DNA of 64,000 nucleotides, taken from assembly GCF_000255455.1 (NCBI RefSeq), contig NZ_JH621261.1, positions 35,451 through 99,450 on the forward strand, given 5' to 3'. This stretch comes from Aquimarina agarilytica ZC1. GTDB lineage: Bacteria > Bacteroidota > Bacteroidia > Flavobacteriales > Flavobacteriaceae. Positions 30,210 through 37,516 of the stretch are shown here, one piece after another. A model generated the notes under the pieces. That model saw only the letters and a list, made by a program, of their open reading frames with translations, had not been told where the DNA came from and made no database searches. Positions within the stretch are counted from its first letter, which is position 1, and each line of letters starts with the position of its first letter. Made by a program: the position numbers and the translations under genes.

Positions 30210-32585
30210 ATGAAGTATTTAAATGACAATATAGAGTCGCCTTTTATATTAAAAGTAAGTTTTAATAGTTACTTGAATCGTTATGAAGAATTAGCGAAGA
30301 GTAGTGATGCCTTTTTGTCTGCTAAGGCGCAACGAATTTTAGAAGTACAAGCACCTTATCCTATTTTAAGAGAGGGGTTTAGTGATATATCATTGTTAAG
30401 TAAATACGAAAAAGAAATACAATTTATTTTACAAGATGCCTTTAGCGAGGTACTCACTTTGAATGAAATTAAAACGGCTTCGGTTCCTTTTCATAATTAT
30501 ATTTTTAATACATCTCAACGTTTCAAGAATATTTTAGCTGCAGCAGGAGATGATTTCGAACTTACTATTGAAAACATACCCGAAGATGATCGTTATATAA
30601 TTGCTTGTACCATTATATTAAACTTTTGTTATGGCTTTAATATAAATATCAAGCGTCCTTTTTTTTATAAAATACCTGATTCAAATGGAATTATGCGTTA
30701 TTATAAAATTTTGTATAACGCAGATTTTATGGAGATTCATCCTACAGATAAGGCAACACCAATAATGCAAAGTGATTTTGATGAACTTTTAGATAATTAT
30801 GATAATATAGATTTATGGAAAGAAAAATTTCCCGAGAATAGTTATTTATTTAAGGGGTTTGTGATATCAAATATTTTTGATGTTACCGACGATCAATCTA
30901 TTTCTAACATAAAGTCTAATTTAATTGGAAGTGATAAAAAGAAGGATGGAAATTTTATAAACCAATTCGAATCTATATTCCAGTCACTGCTTAATATTAA
31001 GGATTTAAAAGTAGGTTTTTCAATATATAATGATGAAGAACAAACATTTGAGCGTGTTTATGGCACTAAAATGAATAGCTTTTTATTACATAATTCTGAC
31101 ACAAAAAAGTGTAAAACTTGCTTGTGTGATTGGAGTCATAAACGTTTACTAAAAGAAAATAAATATGTGGCGATATCTGATGTGGATAAAATGTATGATA
31201 AATTTGATGATAAAATACCTCAAATAGGCATATTACAGCAACAGCAAATTAAGAGTGCTATTTTAGCACCTGTAGCTAATGAAGAAGGTTTATTTGGTGT
31301 TTTAGAATTGGTTTCGAGCAAATCAAAAGTACTTAATAGTATAAATGCGAATAAATTAATTGATGTAATGCCACATATTATAGCGGCTGTTGAGCATTCA
31401 AAAGAAGAAGAAGAAAATTTAATAGAAGCTATTATACAGAAAGAATGTACATCCATACATCCTAGTGTGCATTGGAAATTTAAGAGTGAAGCTAAAAGAT
31501 ATATCAGAGAACAATTAAATGGAAATCAAGTTTCATTTAATAAATTAGCTTTCAAAGAAGTATATCCTTTATATGGGCAGATAGACATCAAAGGATCTTC
31601 GGAGGCACGTAATTGGGCAACAAAACAAGATTTGTCATTACAGTTACAAAGCGCTAAAGAGGTGCTTAAAAGTGCTTTTAGTTTAGATTCACTACCAGTG
31701 TATGAACAATATTTATTTCAAATTGATACTTTTTTACAGGATTTAGAAAAAGGATTTCAAGTAGATAGCGAACAAAAAATAACTTCTTTTTTAAAGAAAA
31801 GCATTAATAAACTTTTCAAGCATATAAAAAAGACGTCACATTTATCAACACAAATAAAACAATATTTTGACAGTGTTGATAGTGAATTACATGTACATTA
31901 TAATCATAGGAAAAATTATGACGAAACGATTACTTTAGTAAATAAAAGGATGGCTGCTTTATTAGATGTAAAGCAGATAGATGCGCAAAAAATGTATCCT
32001 CATTATTTTGAACGTTATAAGACAGATGGGGTGGAGCATAGCATGTACATAGGGGAGTCAATTACAAAAGAGGATAGTTTCAATTCTTTGTATTTATATA
32101 ATCTAAGGTTATGGCAATTACAAGTAATGTGCGAAATGGAAAATACTTTTTATCAAATGCAACCTAATTTCCCCGTAGCCATGGACGTTGCATCAATGAT
32201 TTTAGTATTTAATACACCATTAACAATCAGTTTCCGAATGGATGAAAAGCAATTTGATGTTGATGGAACTTATAATGCCCGTTATGAAGTTGTTAAAAAG
32301 CGTGTGGATAAAGCCTATGTAAAAGGAACAAATGAGCGCATTACCCAAAAAGGAAAAATCGCCATTGTGTATTCGCACAAAGAAGATGAAAGAGAGTATT
32401 TGAAATACATTAACTTTTTACAATCAAAACAGTATTTAGATACGGATGTTGAAATTGTTGAGCTAGAGGATTTACAAGCGGTAACAGGGTTAAAAGCCAT
32501 TCGTGTTAGTGTATTGTACAAACAGAATCTAACAGACAAACAAGTATATACTTATGATGATTTAATGAAAATAATTAATGAATAA
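30210..32585 (+). CDS. large GAF-domain protein, unknown function
   Basis: A 791-residue cytosolic protein with no signal or membrane segment. An unrecognised N-terminal half is followed by a GAF-like domain (about 245-395: LKVGFSIYND, KYVAISDVDKMYD, IKSAILAPVANEEGLFGVLELVSS). Within it lies a compact Cys cluster C301-K-T-C304-L-C306 followed by DWSHKRLL, which could bind a metal or react to redox state. The long C-terminal part (about 400-791) is mainly helical and unrecognised. Proteins of this size and pattern occur widely in Bacteroidetes as GAF proteins of unknown role. Divergent from cydA; TATTTTTG at 30057-30064 could be its -7 box. Confidence 0.7.
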   Translation: MKYLNDNIESPFILKVSFNSYLNRYEELAKSSDAFLSAKAQRILEVQAPYPILREGFSDISLLSKYEKEIQFILQDAFSEVLTLNEIKTASVPFHNYIFNTSQRFKNILAAAGDDFELTIENIPEDDRYIIACTIILNFCYGFNINIKRPFFYKIPDSNGIMRYYKILYNADFMEIHPTDKATPIMQSDFDELLDNYDNIDLWKEKFPENSYLFKGFVISNIFDVTDDQSISNIKSNLIGSDKKKDGNFINQFESIFQSLLNIKDLKVGFSIYNDEEQTFERVYGTKMNSFLLHNSDTKKCKTCLCDWSHKRLLKENKYVAISDVDKMYDKFDDKIPQIGILQQQQIKSAILAPVANEEGLFGVLELVSSKSKVLNSINANKLIDVMPHIIAAVEHSKEEEENLIEAIIQKECTSIHPSVHWKFKSEAKRYIREQLNGNQVSFNKLAFKEVYPLYGQIDIKGSSEARNWATKQDLSLQLQSAKEVLKSAFSLDSLPVYEQYLFQIDTFLQDLEKGFQVDSEQKITSFLKKSINKLFKHIKKTSHLSTQIKQYFDSVDSELHVHYNHRKNYDETITLVNKRMAALLDVKQIDAQKMYPHYFERYKTDGVEHSMYIGESITKEDSFNSLYLYNLRLWQLQVMCEMENTFYQMQPNFPVAMDVASMILVFNTPLTISFRMDEKQFDVDGTYNARYEVVKKRVDKAYVKGTNERITQKGKIAIVYSHKEDEREYLKYINFLQSKQYLDTDVEIVELEDLQAVTGLKAIRVSVLYKQNLTDKQVYTYDDLMKIINE

Positions 32586-32603: not shown

Positions 32604-33797
32604 CTATGCATAATAATGGAAGGCTATTGAAAAGGCACTTGCGCTGATAACAATACCTATAATAAAAAAGGTATAAGTAATTCTTAAAATTTTATATTTT
32701 CGATCAAGTACTTTTCCTAAAAAGTATAAATCTTTCGTCATTGATCCATACAAATAATCCTTGTCGTGCATAAGCTCATTCATAGCCCATTCAAATTCGT
32801 CAAGTTTCATTTTATGAAAATTACCAAAGAAAAGTAAATTCACTTTTTTATTTTTAACATCCTCCTTATTGAATTGCCCACTAGTAACATTAGGACGAGT
32901 AGCCAATACCGAAAGAATCATAGTGATTATAGTAAAAATCACAAAAATAACAGTAGGGTAAATCAAATAAGTATTTGAAGGATTGTCAAGTTTAGGAAGT
33001 AAATTGGCTAGTACAAGTGAAACAATTATGGCATTCACGGAGAGTAAAATATTTGCTTTGGTATCAGCAATATCACTGAGCGAAATATGGTTTCGTAACG
33101 TAACACGAAACATAGTTTCAATTCCTCGTTCGGGTAATATAGCTTTGTTTTGTTTGAATGAAAGTTCGGCTTTTTTTAATGCTGTTTTTTGAGCATCTGC
33201 CTTTAGTTTTTTTAAATCTTTTGTTAATTTAATTAAATTTTTATGTTTTCTTTTTTGCCAATTTTCAATGGCATAATTGGTATAAAATTGATGTTGTTGT
33301 GTTGAAAAATCAATGTTTTCTTGTGTCCATTCAATATCAGATAAATTTTTATTGAGTGTTAATTCCCATTCCGCTCTTAATAAATCACTCTGGTCAAAAA
33401 AATCTTTAGATCCAAAATGTGCACAATCGGCATCTCGAATAATTTTTTCTAAATTATTTTGAGGTTCATGTCCCATTTTAGTTGCTATAATAAGCTGAAG
33501 TATGATGCTTATTTGTGCCGCTGTCAAAAGGCTATCTTTTAAATGTTTTTTAGCAAGACTTACACTAGCTTCTTCATGATTAAGTTTATCTTTAATATAG
33601 CCAATATCGTGTAACCAAGCTGCTAGAGTAATTAGCTGAGTGTCTGTTTCGTTGAGTTGTTCTCCTTCACAAATTTCAATTACACTATTGACCACATTTT
33701 TAGTATGACTAAAACTATGATACAAAAAAGTTTGTGGTAAATTATTTTGCAGTAATTCAGAAACGTATTTTTCTGTTTCAAAGATTAAGCTTTTCAT
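32604..33797 (-). CDS. HD phosphohydrolase fused to a Pycsar-type transmembrane effector domain (PycTM)
   Basis: A 397-residue protein. The N-terminal HD domain (about 15-195) has H27, H31, WLHDIGY (H63-D64), H110 and RDADCAHFG (D122/D124), the metal and phosphoesterase residues. The C-terminal region (about 225-397) matches DUF5706/PycTM: FRVTLRNHISLSDIADTKAN, two helices at about 250-268 and 280-299, a soluble segment with MNELMHDKDYLYGSMTKD, and a final helix at about 372-393. PycTM effectors respond to cCMP/cUMP in the Pycsar anti-phage system. Here no cyclase lies nearby and the fusion occurs among ordinary genes, so a housekeeping second-messenger role is also possible. Faces its convergent GAF neighbour with an 18-nt gap. 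Confidence 0.8.
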   Translation of the reverse strand: MKSLIFETEKYVSELLQNNLPQTFLYHSFSHTKNVVNSVIEICEGEQLNETDTQLITLAAWLHDIGYIKDKLNHEEASVSLAKKHLKDSLLTAAQISIILQLIIATKMGHEPQNNLEKIIRDADCAHFGSKDFFDQSDLLRAEWELTLNKNLSDIEWTQENIDFSTQQHQFYTNYAIENWQKRKHKNLIKLTKDLKKLKADAQKTALKKAELSFKQNKAILPERGIETMFRVTLRNHISLSDIADTKANILLSVNAIIVSLVLANLLPKLDNPSNTYLIYPTVIFVIFTIITMILSVLATRPNVTSGQFNKEDVKNKKVNLLFFGNFHKMKLDEFEWAMNELMHDKDYLYGSMTKDLYFLGKVLDRKYKILRITYTFFIIGIVISASAFSIAFHYYA

Positions 33798-33841: not shown

Positions 33842-36800
33842 ATGGGATGTCGACAAGGCCTCATCTTTATTTTAGTATCCTTTTTATTGAGTGCTTGTGC
33901 CACTTATGATTTACAATTAAAAGACGAAAACACACAGGTTTCCTATCCATTTGATAAAGAAATTTTACATTCTTTTTATTTAATTGGCGATGCGGGAAAC
34001 TCAAAATTGGGAACCGAAAGTGACGCACTTGGTTTATTTAAAAAACATATAAAAAAAGCAAATAAAAATAGTACAGCTCTTTTTTTGGGAGATAATATTT
34101 ATCCTAAAGGTCTTCCTGCAAAGGGGAGTGAGTTTAGAAACTTTGCTACACACCAATTGAATGTACAAACAGAGGCTGTTCGTGATTTTAAAGGAAACGC
34201 TATCTTTATTCCAGGAAATCATGATTGGTATTCTGGTATAAAAGGAGTAAAAAGGCAAGAAAAGTATATTGAAAATATATTAGGGAAACACTCTTTTCTC
34301 CCACAGAATGGTTGTCCTATAAAAAGAATAAAAATAGGGACAGCTATTGATCTAATTATAGTGGATTCACATTGGTACATCACTAATTGGAATAAACAAC
34401 CAACAATAAATGATGATTGTGATATAAAAACAAGGCAGCAGTTTTTTGATGAATTTGAAAGTTTAATAAAAAAGGCGAGGGGTAAAACCACATTAATAGC
34501 ATTACATCACCCAATATTTACTAACGGCCCTCATGGAGGGCAGTTTTCATTTAAAAGCCATATGAAACCACTCCCTATTTTGGGTAGCTTAAAAAATGTG
34601 TTACGGAATACTAGTGGAATTGCCAATGTTGATCAAATAGGAGTACGTTACATGGAGTTAAAAAAACGTATTGTAACGCTTGCGCAAGAAAATAAGAAAG
34701 TCATTTTTGTATCGGGTCATGAGCATAGTTTGGAATATTCAACTCAAGATAATTTACACCAAATAATTAGTGGATCTGGTGCAAATGAGAGTCCTACTCG
34801 TTTAAGGAAAAACGGTAAATTTTCAATTGGGAGACAAGGTTTTGCAAGGTTGGATGTATTCAAAGATGGTTCTTCTTTTGTAAGATTCTATACCGCAAAT
34901 GATGAGAAATTAGTATATCAAACAGTAGTATTGCCCGAAGATGAAATCATTGGAGGTGTAACTTATAAAGCCGATTTCCCTTCTCAAGTAAAGGCATCTA
35001 TTTATACAGAAAAAGAAATAACAAAAAGTAAGTTTCATAAAGCTACATGGGGTAAACGTTACCGAAAAGATTATGGAGTTGAAGTAAATGTACCTACTGT
35101 AAATTTAGATACATTGTTTGGAGGTTTATCGCCAGTGCGAAGAGGAGGTGGGCACCAATCAAAATCGTTACGTTTAAAAAATAACAAAGGACAAGAATAT
35201 GTGATGCGCGCTATGCATAAAGAGGCATTACAATATTTACAAGCGGTCGCTTTTAAAGAAAAATATATTGAAGGACAATTCAATAACACTTACCCCGAGC
35301 GATTACTTACCGATGTTTTTGCAGGATCTTATCCTTATGCTCCCTATGCTATAGGTAGTTTAGCAGATGCTATTAAGGTGTTTCATACCAATCCCACATT
35401 ATATTTTGTACCCAAACAAAAAGCCTTAGGGCAATATAATGTTGATTATGGAGATGAACTTTATATGATAGAAGAACGAGCAGCCTCTGGTCATGGAGAA
35501 ACTGCTAGCTTTGGTTTTTCTAATGAATTAATTAGTACATACGATTTATTAAAAAAATTATTAAAAAACCAAAAACATCACGTTGATGAATCAGCTTACA
35601 TAAGAGCCCGTTTGTTTGATATGCTTATTGGTGATTGGGATAGGCATGAAGACCAATGGCGTTGGGCAACATTTAAAGAAGAAGATAAAACAATTTATAG
35701 ACCAGTTCCTAGGGATAGAGATCAAGCTTTCTCTATAATGGATGATGGTTTTTTATTAGGAATTTTAACCACAATTATTCCTGATATTCGTTTACTGCGT
35801 AGTTATGAAGAAGAATTAAAGAGTGTAAAATGGTTTAACTTAGAACCTTATCCATTAGATGTTGCTTTAATTAATAGTGCTAATAAAAAGGATTGGGACG
35901 CCGAGGTTACTTTTATACAAACACACTTAACAAAGGATGTCATTGACAAAGCGTTTCAGGCTTTCCCAAAAGAGGTTGATCAGATAACTGTACAAAATAT
36001 TAAAACTAAATTACTGGGCAGAATAAAAAACATACAACAAATTTCAGATGCTTATTATGCTCATATTAATAGATTTTCTGTTGTTAAAGGAACAAATAAA
36101 GATGATCGGTTTGAAATTAAAAGATATCCTAATGGTAAAACAACAATTAAAGGCTATCGAATTATAAAAGGAGAAAAAGGGTTCATGTTTCATGAACGTA
36201 CCTATAGTCATAAAGAAACTAAAGAACTATGGGTTTATGGATTAGATGATACAGATTATTTTGAAGTATCTGGAAAAGGAGATCATTATATACCCATTCG
36301 ATTAATTGGGGGGCAAAATAAGGATACTTACCATATTAAAAATGGGAAAAAAGTTCATTTGTATGATTATAAATCTAAAAAAAGTGAATTTATAACCAAT
36401 AAAGGAAAAAAGAAGCTTACCGATGATTATGATACTAATGTGTATAATTATAAAAAATTAAAAAATAGTTTAAATCAGTTTTTGCCAGTTATTGGTTATA
36501 ATCCGGATGATGGTTTTAGGGTAGGTTTTTCCAACACCTTTACTTTTTATAGATTTGAACGAAATCCATTTACCTCTCAGCATAATATTTCAGCAGATTT
36601 GTATTTTGCAACACAGGGTTTTGATTTGAATTATTCCAGTGAATTTGCTAATGTTTTTGGAAATTGGAATTTCGGTTTTAGTTCACAATTTACAAGTCCT
36701 AATTATAGTATTAACTTTTTTGGTTTTGGAAATGAAACTATAAATCCAAATGTGGAAAATGAAAAACAATTTGATTTAGACTATAACAGAGTTAAGCTAA

Positions 36801-37516
36801 GTAAATTCAAATTTGTGCCTTCATTAATTTGGAAAGGTGATTTAGGGGCAGAATTTACTACTTCGGTTAGTTTTGAAACCATTGAAGTAGAACAAACTAA
36901 TGGTAGGTTTATCAATGATTTTTATTTAAATAACAATATTGAAAATAGGGATAGCTTTTTGGGGGTTGAAGCTGATTATCATTTTGAAAATAAAAATGAT
37001 TGGGTATTCCCAAGCATGGGTATGCATACAAACTTAAAGTTGGGTTACAAACAAAATATAGAAAAGTCTAAAGGTTTTACATACCTAAAGCCAATTTTAG
37101 GTTTTACCTATAAATTAATTCCTAGTGGAAAACTTGTTTTAGCTACTAATATAGGGGCTCATATTAATTTTGGAAATGATTTTGAATTTTATCAAGCGGC
37201 AACAATAGGAGCAGATAATAGTTTAAGAGCTTACAGAAATCAACGTTTTTCAGGTAAACGATCGTTTTATCAGAGTACAGACTTTCGCTGGGATCTAACA
37301 AAGATTAAAACACGATTGATTCCTTTGAAAGTAGGGATGTATTCTGGAGTTGATTATGGAAAAGTATGGGTGGCAAATGATGAAAACAAAAAATGGAATA
37401 ATTCATTAGGGGGAGGTCTTTTTATAAATGCCGCTGATATGTTAATAGGGAATGTATCAGTTTTTACAGCTAAAGATGGAGAGCGATTTAATTTTAAACT
37501 AGGCTTTGGTTTTTAA
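33842..37516 (+). CDS. metallophosphatase / kinase-like / outer-membrane beta-barrel lipoprotein
   Basis: A 1224-residue protein. Lipobox LLSAC (Cys19). Residues about 42-350 form a calcineurin-type phosphoesterase with every metal motif: GDAG (49-52), GDN (83-85), GNHDWY (125-130), HH (222-223) and GHEH (292-295). Residues about 420-720 are not a known domain to me, but show a Gly-rich turn (RRGGGHQSKSLRL), a strand EYVMRAMHKE, YMIEER, then FDMLIGDWDRHEDQW (593-606) and PVPRDRDQAF (621-630). This order resembles a protein-kinase-like fold of the HipA/Fam20/PI-kinase kind. Residues about 880-1224 form a beta-barrel with alternating strands, ending FNFKLGFGF, like surface-antigen/BamA-type barrels. 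Two small genes follow at about 20-nt spacing. Confidence 0.85.
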   Translation: MGCRQGLIFILVSFLLSACATYDLQLKDENTQVSYPFDKEILHSFYLIGDAGNSKLGTESDALGLFKKHIKKANKNSTALFLGDNIYPKGLPAKGSEFRNFATHQLNVQTEAVRDFKGNAIFIPGNHDWYSGIKGVKRQEKYIENILGKHSFLPQNGCPIKRIKIGTAIDLIIVDSHWYITNWNKQPTINDDCDIKTRQQFFDEFESLIKKARGKTTLIALHHPIFTNGPHGGQFSFKSHMKPLPILGSLKNVLRNTSGIANVDQIGVRYMELKKRIVTLAQENKKVIFVSGHEHSLEYSTQDNLHQIISGSGANESPTRLRKNGKFSIGRQGFARLDVFKDGSSFVRFYTANDEKLVYQTVVLPEDEIIGGVTYKADFPSQVKASIYTEKEITKSKFHKATWGKRYRKDYGVEVNVPTVNLDTLFGGLSPVRRGGGHQSKSLRLKNNKGQEYVMRAMHKEALQYLQAVAFKEKYIEGQFNNTYPERLLTDVFAGSYPYAPYAIGSLADAIKVFHTNPTLYFVPKQKALGQYNVDYGDELYMIEERAASGHGETASFGFSNELISTYDLLKKLLKNQKHHVDESAYIRARLFDMLIGDWDRHEDQWRWATFKEEDKTIYRPVPRDRDQAFSIMDDGFLLGILTTIIPDIRLLRSYEEELKSVKWFNLEPYPLDVALINSANKKDWDAEVTFIQTHLTKDVIDKAFQAFPKEVDQITVQNIKTKLLGRIKNIQQISDAYYAHINRFSVVKGTNKDDRFEIKRYPNGKTTIKGYRIIKGEKGFMFHERTYSHKETKELWVYGLDDTDYFEVSGKGDHYIPIRLIGGQNKDTYHIKNGKKVHLYDYKSKKSEFITNKGKKKLTDDYDTNVYNYKKLKNSLNQFLPVIGYNPDDGFRVGFSNTFTFYRFERNPFTSQHNISADLYFATQGFDLNYSSEFANVFGNWNFGFSSQFTSPNYSINFFGFGNETINPNVENEKQFDLDYNRVKLSKFKFVPSLIWKGDLGAEFTTSVSFETIEVEQTNGRFINDFYLNNNIENRDSFLGVEADYHFENKNDWVFPSMGMHTNLKLGYKQNIEKSKGFTYLKPILGFTYKLIPSGKLVLATNIGAHINFGNDFEFYQAATIGADNSLRAYRNQRFSGKRSFYQSTDFRWDLTKIKTRLIPLKVGMYSGVDYGKVWVANDENKKWNNSLGGGLFINAADMLIGNVSVFTAKDGERFNFKLGFGF

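Follow-up and report, generated by a model that had tools for sequence, protein, structure and literature searches.

Domain organization of the protein

We examined a 64,000-nucleotide stretch of the Aquimarina agarilytica ZC1 genome (assembly GCF_000255455.1, contig NZ_JH621261.1, positions 35,451 to 99,450 of the forward strand), hereafter the window. An open reading frame (ORF) at 33842-37516 (+) encodes a protein of 1224 aa that comprises, in order, a predicted lipoprotein signal peptide, a phosphatase-type domain, a middle domain, a linker rich in beta strands, and what is predicted to be an outer-membrane barrel; coordinates of these features are likewise window positions on the plus strand. 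A first-pass annotation had described it as a lipid-anchored surface protein joining an N-terminal metallophosphatase, a kinase-like middle region, and a C-terminal beta-barrel. Our analysis retains this layout, disfavors the surface location, and points to the middle domain as a real, unannotated family, kinase-like by predicted fold, inside a published class of Omp85 proteins.

Pfam places Metallophos at residues 45-295, confirming a PF00149-type domain N-terminal to the middle region, and adds a ShlB match (1121-1189) just below the cut-off and one chance-level DUF. In NCBIfam, an Omp85_fam match (1057-1224) stays below threshold and a phosphodiesterase match is weak. Neither library has a family that matches residues 400-760 at E ≤ 10, in keeping with the earlier remark that this region has no obvious annotation, and the whole protein has zero matches at E ≤ 10 among PDB sequences (phmmer). 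The genome also carries another full-length copy (L002, 1483-5199), which has 44% identity, the same layout, and intact active-site motifs. The closest named relative among those fetched, from an uncultured Aquimarina (L110), is 79% identical.

A predicted kinase fold in the middle domain

The middle domain (residues about 400-745; 35039-36076) is modeled by AlphaFold (m1e604703579b) as a two-lobed kinase-like fold, and Foldseek and VIA matches to kinase-like structures cover model residues about 43-368, or 418-743 of the protein. Structure prediction and fold search, which had been suggested as a check on the kinase-like assignment, are thus favorable to it. In hhalign, the middle-domain profile reaches only low probabilities against HipA (E 0.0038) and CotH (E 0.0051), though with sensible pairing of motifs. 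We propose that the domain has a predicted two-lobed atypical kinase fold of the PI4KII/CotH/HipA kind.

The candidate active-site motifs lie exactly where the first-pass annotation had put them, and their conservation was counted in 80 relatives of less than 70% identity, drawn from 153 aligned sequences. The Gly-rich loop GGG 435-437 (35144-35152), located between two strands, is kept at G435 in 77, at G436 in 78, and at G437 in 72 of the 80. The strand YVMRAMHK 453-460 (35198-35221; strand 452-460 in the model), of which YVMRAM 453-458 had been noted, offers R456 (78/80) and K460 (79/80) as candidates for the nucleotide-binding basic residue, and a hinge-like strand, YMIEER 541-546 (35462-35479), carries E544 (78/80). 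The catalytic-loop motif GDWDRHEDQW 597-606 (35630-35659), which profile alignment pairs with DDH of HipA and WDDY of CotH, holds the catalytic candidate D600 (77 of the 80) and the metal candidate Q605 (79, the other having N) together with D598 (80), R601 (80), and H602 (75). Finally, the DFG-like metal motif PRDRDQAF 623-630 (35708-35731), paired with IPYDYDNSF of CotH, contains D625 (77) and D627 (78). The candidate catalytic Asp and DFG-type metal Asp stand in the canonical order of protein kinase-like (PKL) folds.

Invariance of D598, D600, R601, H602, D625, and D627 had been put forward as a test, and each is present in 75-80 of the 80 relatives. Because DWDRHEDQW and PRDRDQ are invariant across 22 close homologues and the motifs are kept in most of the 80 relatives, they are more than a chance resemblance, which we rule out. 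All 13 positions tested are kept in 145 of the 153 sequences and the four core positions in 148. The remaining eight fall into three groups: three sequences depart at a single position, two (L118:7439 and L119:4433, both adjoining intact paralogues) have lost D600 along with H602, and three (L130, L131, and L152) have lost between five and seven positions at once. The suggestion that the domain might be a decayed fold is unlikely for the window protein, and only a few relatives look decayed. In L118 (4126-9151) and L119 (4433-7778), DWSRRE replaces DWDRHE with intact paralogues alongside; these may be pseudoenzyme-enzyme pairs, an arrangement reminiscent of pseudokinase-kinase pairs.

In predicted fold, and in the succession from Gly loop through hinge Glu and catalytic Asp to DFG-like Asp, the family agrees with the atypical kinases PI4K type II, CotH, CtkA, HipA/HipT, and Fam20. 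It differs from them in having Gln for the metal-site Asn, in its fusion to a phosphatase and a barrel, and in being extracytoplasmic by virtue of a signal peptide, lipobox, or membrane anchor. No Pfam match to HipA_C, CotH, PI3_PI4_kinase, or Fam20C was obtained for the window protein at E ≤ 10. Membership in the HipA family (PF07804) was rejected on this ground, the HipA_C profile having matched two other genes of the same genome, as was membership in the CotH family (PF08757), whose profile matched one other place there. A profile of 38 middle-domain sequences retrieved three chance-level, non-kinase matches from PDB sequences (best E 0.13). One standalone relative (P0189) is labeled "HipA domain-containing" by NCBI, yet has no Pfam match. 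Separately, PADLOC reported a weak match (E 0.0012) between residues 570-621, the catalytic-loop region, and the candidate defence protein PDC-M03A, and in two genomes belonging to one family (G019:C15 and G070:C10) a gene of the CotH family is found about 1.5-2.2 kb away from a gene for a middle-plus-barrel protein.

Phosphatase domain, linker, and barrel

The N-terminal enzyme domain (residues 40-360; 33959-34921) is of the purple-acid-phosphatase type, which refines the earlier calcineurin-type label. Purple acid phosphatases bind their metals through a seven-ligand set that includes a Tyr. The full set, Tyr included, is present in the window protein family, and the predicted fold, too, places the domain with the purple acid phosphatases. 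Across 72 relatives of less than 70% identity, motif I GDAG (33986-33997) keeps D50 in 71; motif II GDNIY (34088-34102) keeps D84 in 72 and Y87 in 70; motif III GNHD (34214-34225) keeps N126 in 70; and motif IV HH (H222 and H223; 34505-34510) and motif V GHEH (H293 and H295; 34715-34726) keep every His in all 72. What sets the domain apart from purple acid phosphatase type 5 (TRAP, uteroferrin) is that it shares its chain with a kinase-like domain and a predicted barrel of the outer membrane.

A beta-rich linker (residues 746-880; 36077-36481), recognized from model strands and homologue conservation, contains a conserved GGxxxD stretch (G823, G824, and D828) that by eye resembles one RTX-type repeat. 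The C-terminal beta-barrel noted in the first pass is predicted to have 16 strands, the first from residue 876 (36467-37513), and to be of the Omp85/TamA type (BamA/TamA kind). Relatives carry LRGYRNERF, which we take to be the Omp85 loop-6 RGF/Y motif; homologue alignment identifies its counterpart in the window protein as LRAYRNQRF 1128-1136 (37223-37249), with Ala in place of Gly. PF01103 scores above the cut-off in relatives, while the window protein itself has only the ShlB match. Neither Pfam nor NCBIfam finds a POTRA domain in the window protein.

Distribution and modularity

With residues 370-900 as query, at least 5952 of 7994 candidates scored matched at E ≤ 0.001. The middle part occurs in 112 of 296 genomes of the phylum, A. 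agarilytica ZC1 included; within the bacterial family to which the strain belongs, 27 of the 29 other genomes listed have it. The fetched loci contain 156 ORFs with the middle domain, the window's gene being counted twice among the full-length ones. Phosphatase, middle, linker, and barrel are combined in 128 of them; the remainder consist of middle, linker, and barrel (12), middle and linker (8), middle and barrel (2), middle alone (5, of 423-425 aa), or phosphatase and middle only (1). The five standalone proteins (L113-L117) have an apparent single N-terminal membrane helix.

In two species of one genus, the parts are encoded by three adjacent genes on the same strand (L121, 4051-8097; L122, 1838-5793). 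The first gene product consists of middle domain and linker and the second is a PF00149 protein, each with its own lipobox; the third is an Omp85 barrel protein, whose gene overlaps that of the PF00149 protein by 4 bases. This assignment rests on Pfam for L121 only and on local profiles for L122. When the phosphatase part was searched against 99 genomes of the phylum, 25 of its 30 matches fell in ORFs of at least 1202 codons and five in ORFs of 331-426; judged by length only, none of these 30 is a phosphatase-barrel fusion that lacks the middle domain. The barrel part as query also found barrel-only ORFs.

Cellular location

Residues 1-19 (33842-33898) read as a signal peptide with the lipobox LSAC and a predicted lipidated Cys19, in line with the lipid anchor proposed earlier. 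Among 128 full-length relatives, a count that takes in the window's gene, a crude pattern recognizes a lipobox in 86; of the 42 missed, some visibly have one and some do not. Acidic residues just after the Cys act as a surface-export signal of Bacteroidota lipoproteins. Two acidic residues in this place occur in none of the 86; positions +2 to +6 hold no acidic residue in 75 and one in 11. With 16 strands, both ends of the barrel should face the periplasm. In PlpD of Pseudomonas aeruginosa, the best-studied enzyme-Omp85 fusion, the enzyme domain stays periplasmic according to the available text (PMC11116518). Because of the even-stranded barrel, the missing acidic run, and the PlpD precedent, we disfavor surface display and, by analogy, place the enzyme domains probably in the periplasm.

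Relationship to known Omp85 proteins

The window protein almost certainly belongs to the same class as the "Metallo" Omp85 subfamily of Heinz and Lithgow (2014), which was described as PF00149 plus Omp85, with PF00149 termed a metalloprotease domain (PMC4104836). Both have PF00149 N-terminal to an Omp85 barrel and no POTRA found. The word kinase is absent from the main text of that study, and its account, as available, does not include the kinase-like domain, split genes, or phosphatase-free forms described here. The PlpD paper lists PF00149-Omp85 proteins as not well characterised in the text available (PMC11116518). PlpD, a patatin-Omp85 protein, resembles the window protein in that an enzyme domain precedes the barrel in one chain; its enzyme is a patatin lipase and it includes a single POTRA (PMC11116518), whereas the window protein combines a lipobox with two domains for phosphate chemistry and the beta-rich linker. 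These type Vd features have no counterpart here, with no patatin or POTRA match in the window protein at E ≤ 10 (Pfam, NCBIfam). No report of an Omp85 protein with a kinase-like domain turned up in the open-licence literature searched. Barrel and phosphatase are already known as a pair; what is new is the kinase-like family and the way it is combined with both of them. The domain occurs in thousands of proteins, which databases name for the phosphatase or the barrel only. The family also provides a function lead for one uncharacterised Omp85 class, and the three-gene form allows its parts to be studied separately.

Proposed function and alternatives

We propose, with about even confidence for and against, that a single membrane-tethered chain unites opposing phosphate-adding and phosphate-removing enzymes in the periplasm. 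The kinase-like domain would add phosphate to a head group on the periplasmic face of the outer membrane, and the phosphatase domain would take phosphate off the same kind of head group. Because the fold is close to PI4KII and because of the PlpD precedent, the substrate may be a lipid or lipid-linked glycan. To our knowledge, no ATP is present in the periplasm, so an imported nucleotide or a non-ATP phosphate donor would be needed; activity would mean phosphorylation in such a compartment and makes the donor a testable question. In a wider version, a phylum-wide family of extracytoplasmic kinases would take its phosphate from some source other than cytoplasmic ATP. In most Flavobacteriaceae these kinases would share one chain with an opposing purple acid phosphatase and with the Omp85 barrel, as a self-contained phosphate writer-eraser on outer-membrane lipids or glycans. 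This version is tentative and somewhat doubtful.

Several observations weigh against a kinase-phosphatase pair. Both activities are predictions from sequence and model, and the periplasmic location and the substrate rest on analogy. Similarity to known kinases is modest: hhalign probabilities are only 7-9% (HipA 8.8%, CotH 7.0%), compared with 51.6% for HipA against CotH, and Foldseek target TM-scores are about 0.54 for CtkA (rmsd 7-8.5). HipA, CotH, and PI4KII have Asn five residues after the catalytic Asp, N314 of HipA being the Mg-binding Asn of kinases; the window family has Gln605 there in 79 of 80 relatives. The candidate basic residue inside the third strand is Arg456 rather than Lys, K460 standing at the end of the strand, and in five of the 153 members the core active site is incomplete. 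Moreover, 27 of the 156 middle-domain ORFs have no phosphatase, and therefore a writer-eraser pair is not needed for the role of the kinase-like module.

The same substitutions of Asn by Gln and, apparently, Lys by Arg, the lack of known periplasmic ATP, and the degenerate relatives beside intact ones in L118 and L119 would also suit a catalytically silent sensor of nucleotide or phosphate that controls the phosphatase or barrel. We consider this unlikely, since a pure binding site would not require D600 and D625, and losses from the active site are rare and mostly joint. In the available text on the PKL family Lani_1194, moreover, Arg at the Lys position is described together with a conserved active site (PMC9758233).

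The donor problem would disappear with extracellular ATP if the enzyme domains were moved through the barrel or flipped outside it, to act on environmental phosphate compounds; translocation was considered for the "Metallo" class in the available text of Heinz and Lithgow (PMC4104836). Such a cell-surface device, toward which the first-pass annotation and earlier type Vd models point, is quite unlikely given the even-stranded barrel with N-terminal domains, the missing export signal in all 86 recognised lipoboxes, and the periplasmic enzyme domain reported for PlpD (PMC11116518). Very unlikely, in our estimate, is a kept kinase fold with other nucleotide chemistry (AMPylation, polyglutamylation, or similar) whose by-products the phosphatase clears, as the motif order is canonical. 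In its favor, SelO performs AMPylation with a kinase fold of altered active site. Polyglutamylation by SidJ is a further example of a kinase fold with an altered active site, as far as the available text goes (PMC6858067).

Neighboring genes

The divergent neighbor at 32604-33797 (-) encodes a protein that combines an HD domain with a PycTM (Pycsar effector) domain, and 60 of the 80 loci fetched have a homologue of it close to the target gene. We rejected it as a functional partner: the proximity is frequent, but shared gene order of related genomes could explain it. The gene at 30210-32585 (+) encodes a 791-aa protein that lacks a Pfam match at E ≤ 0.01 and has a homologue nearby in 44 of the 80 loci.
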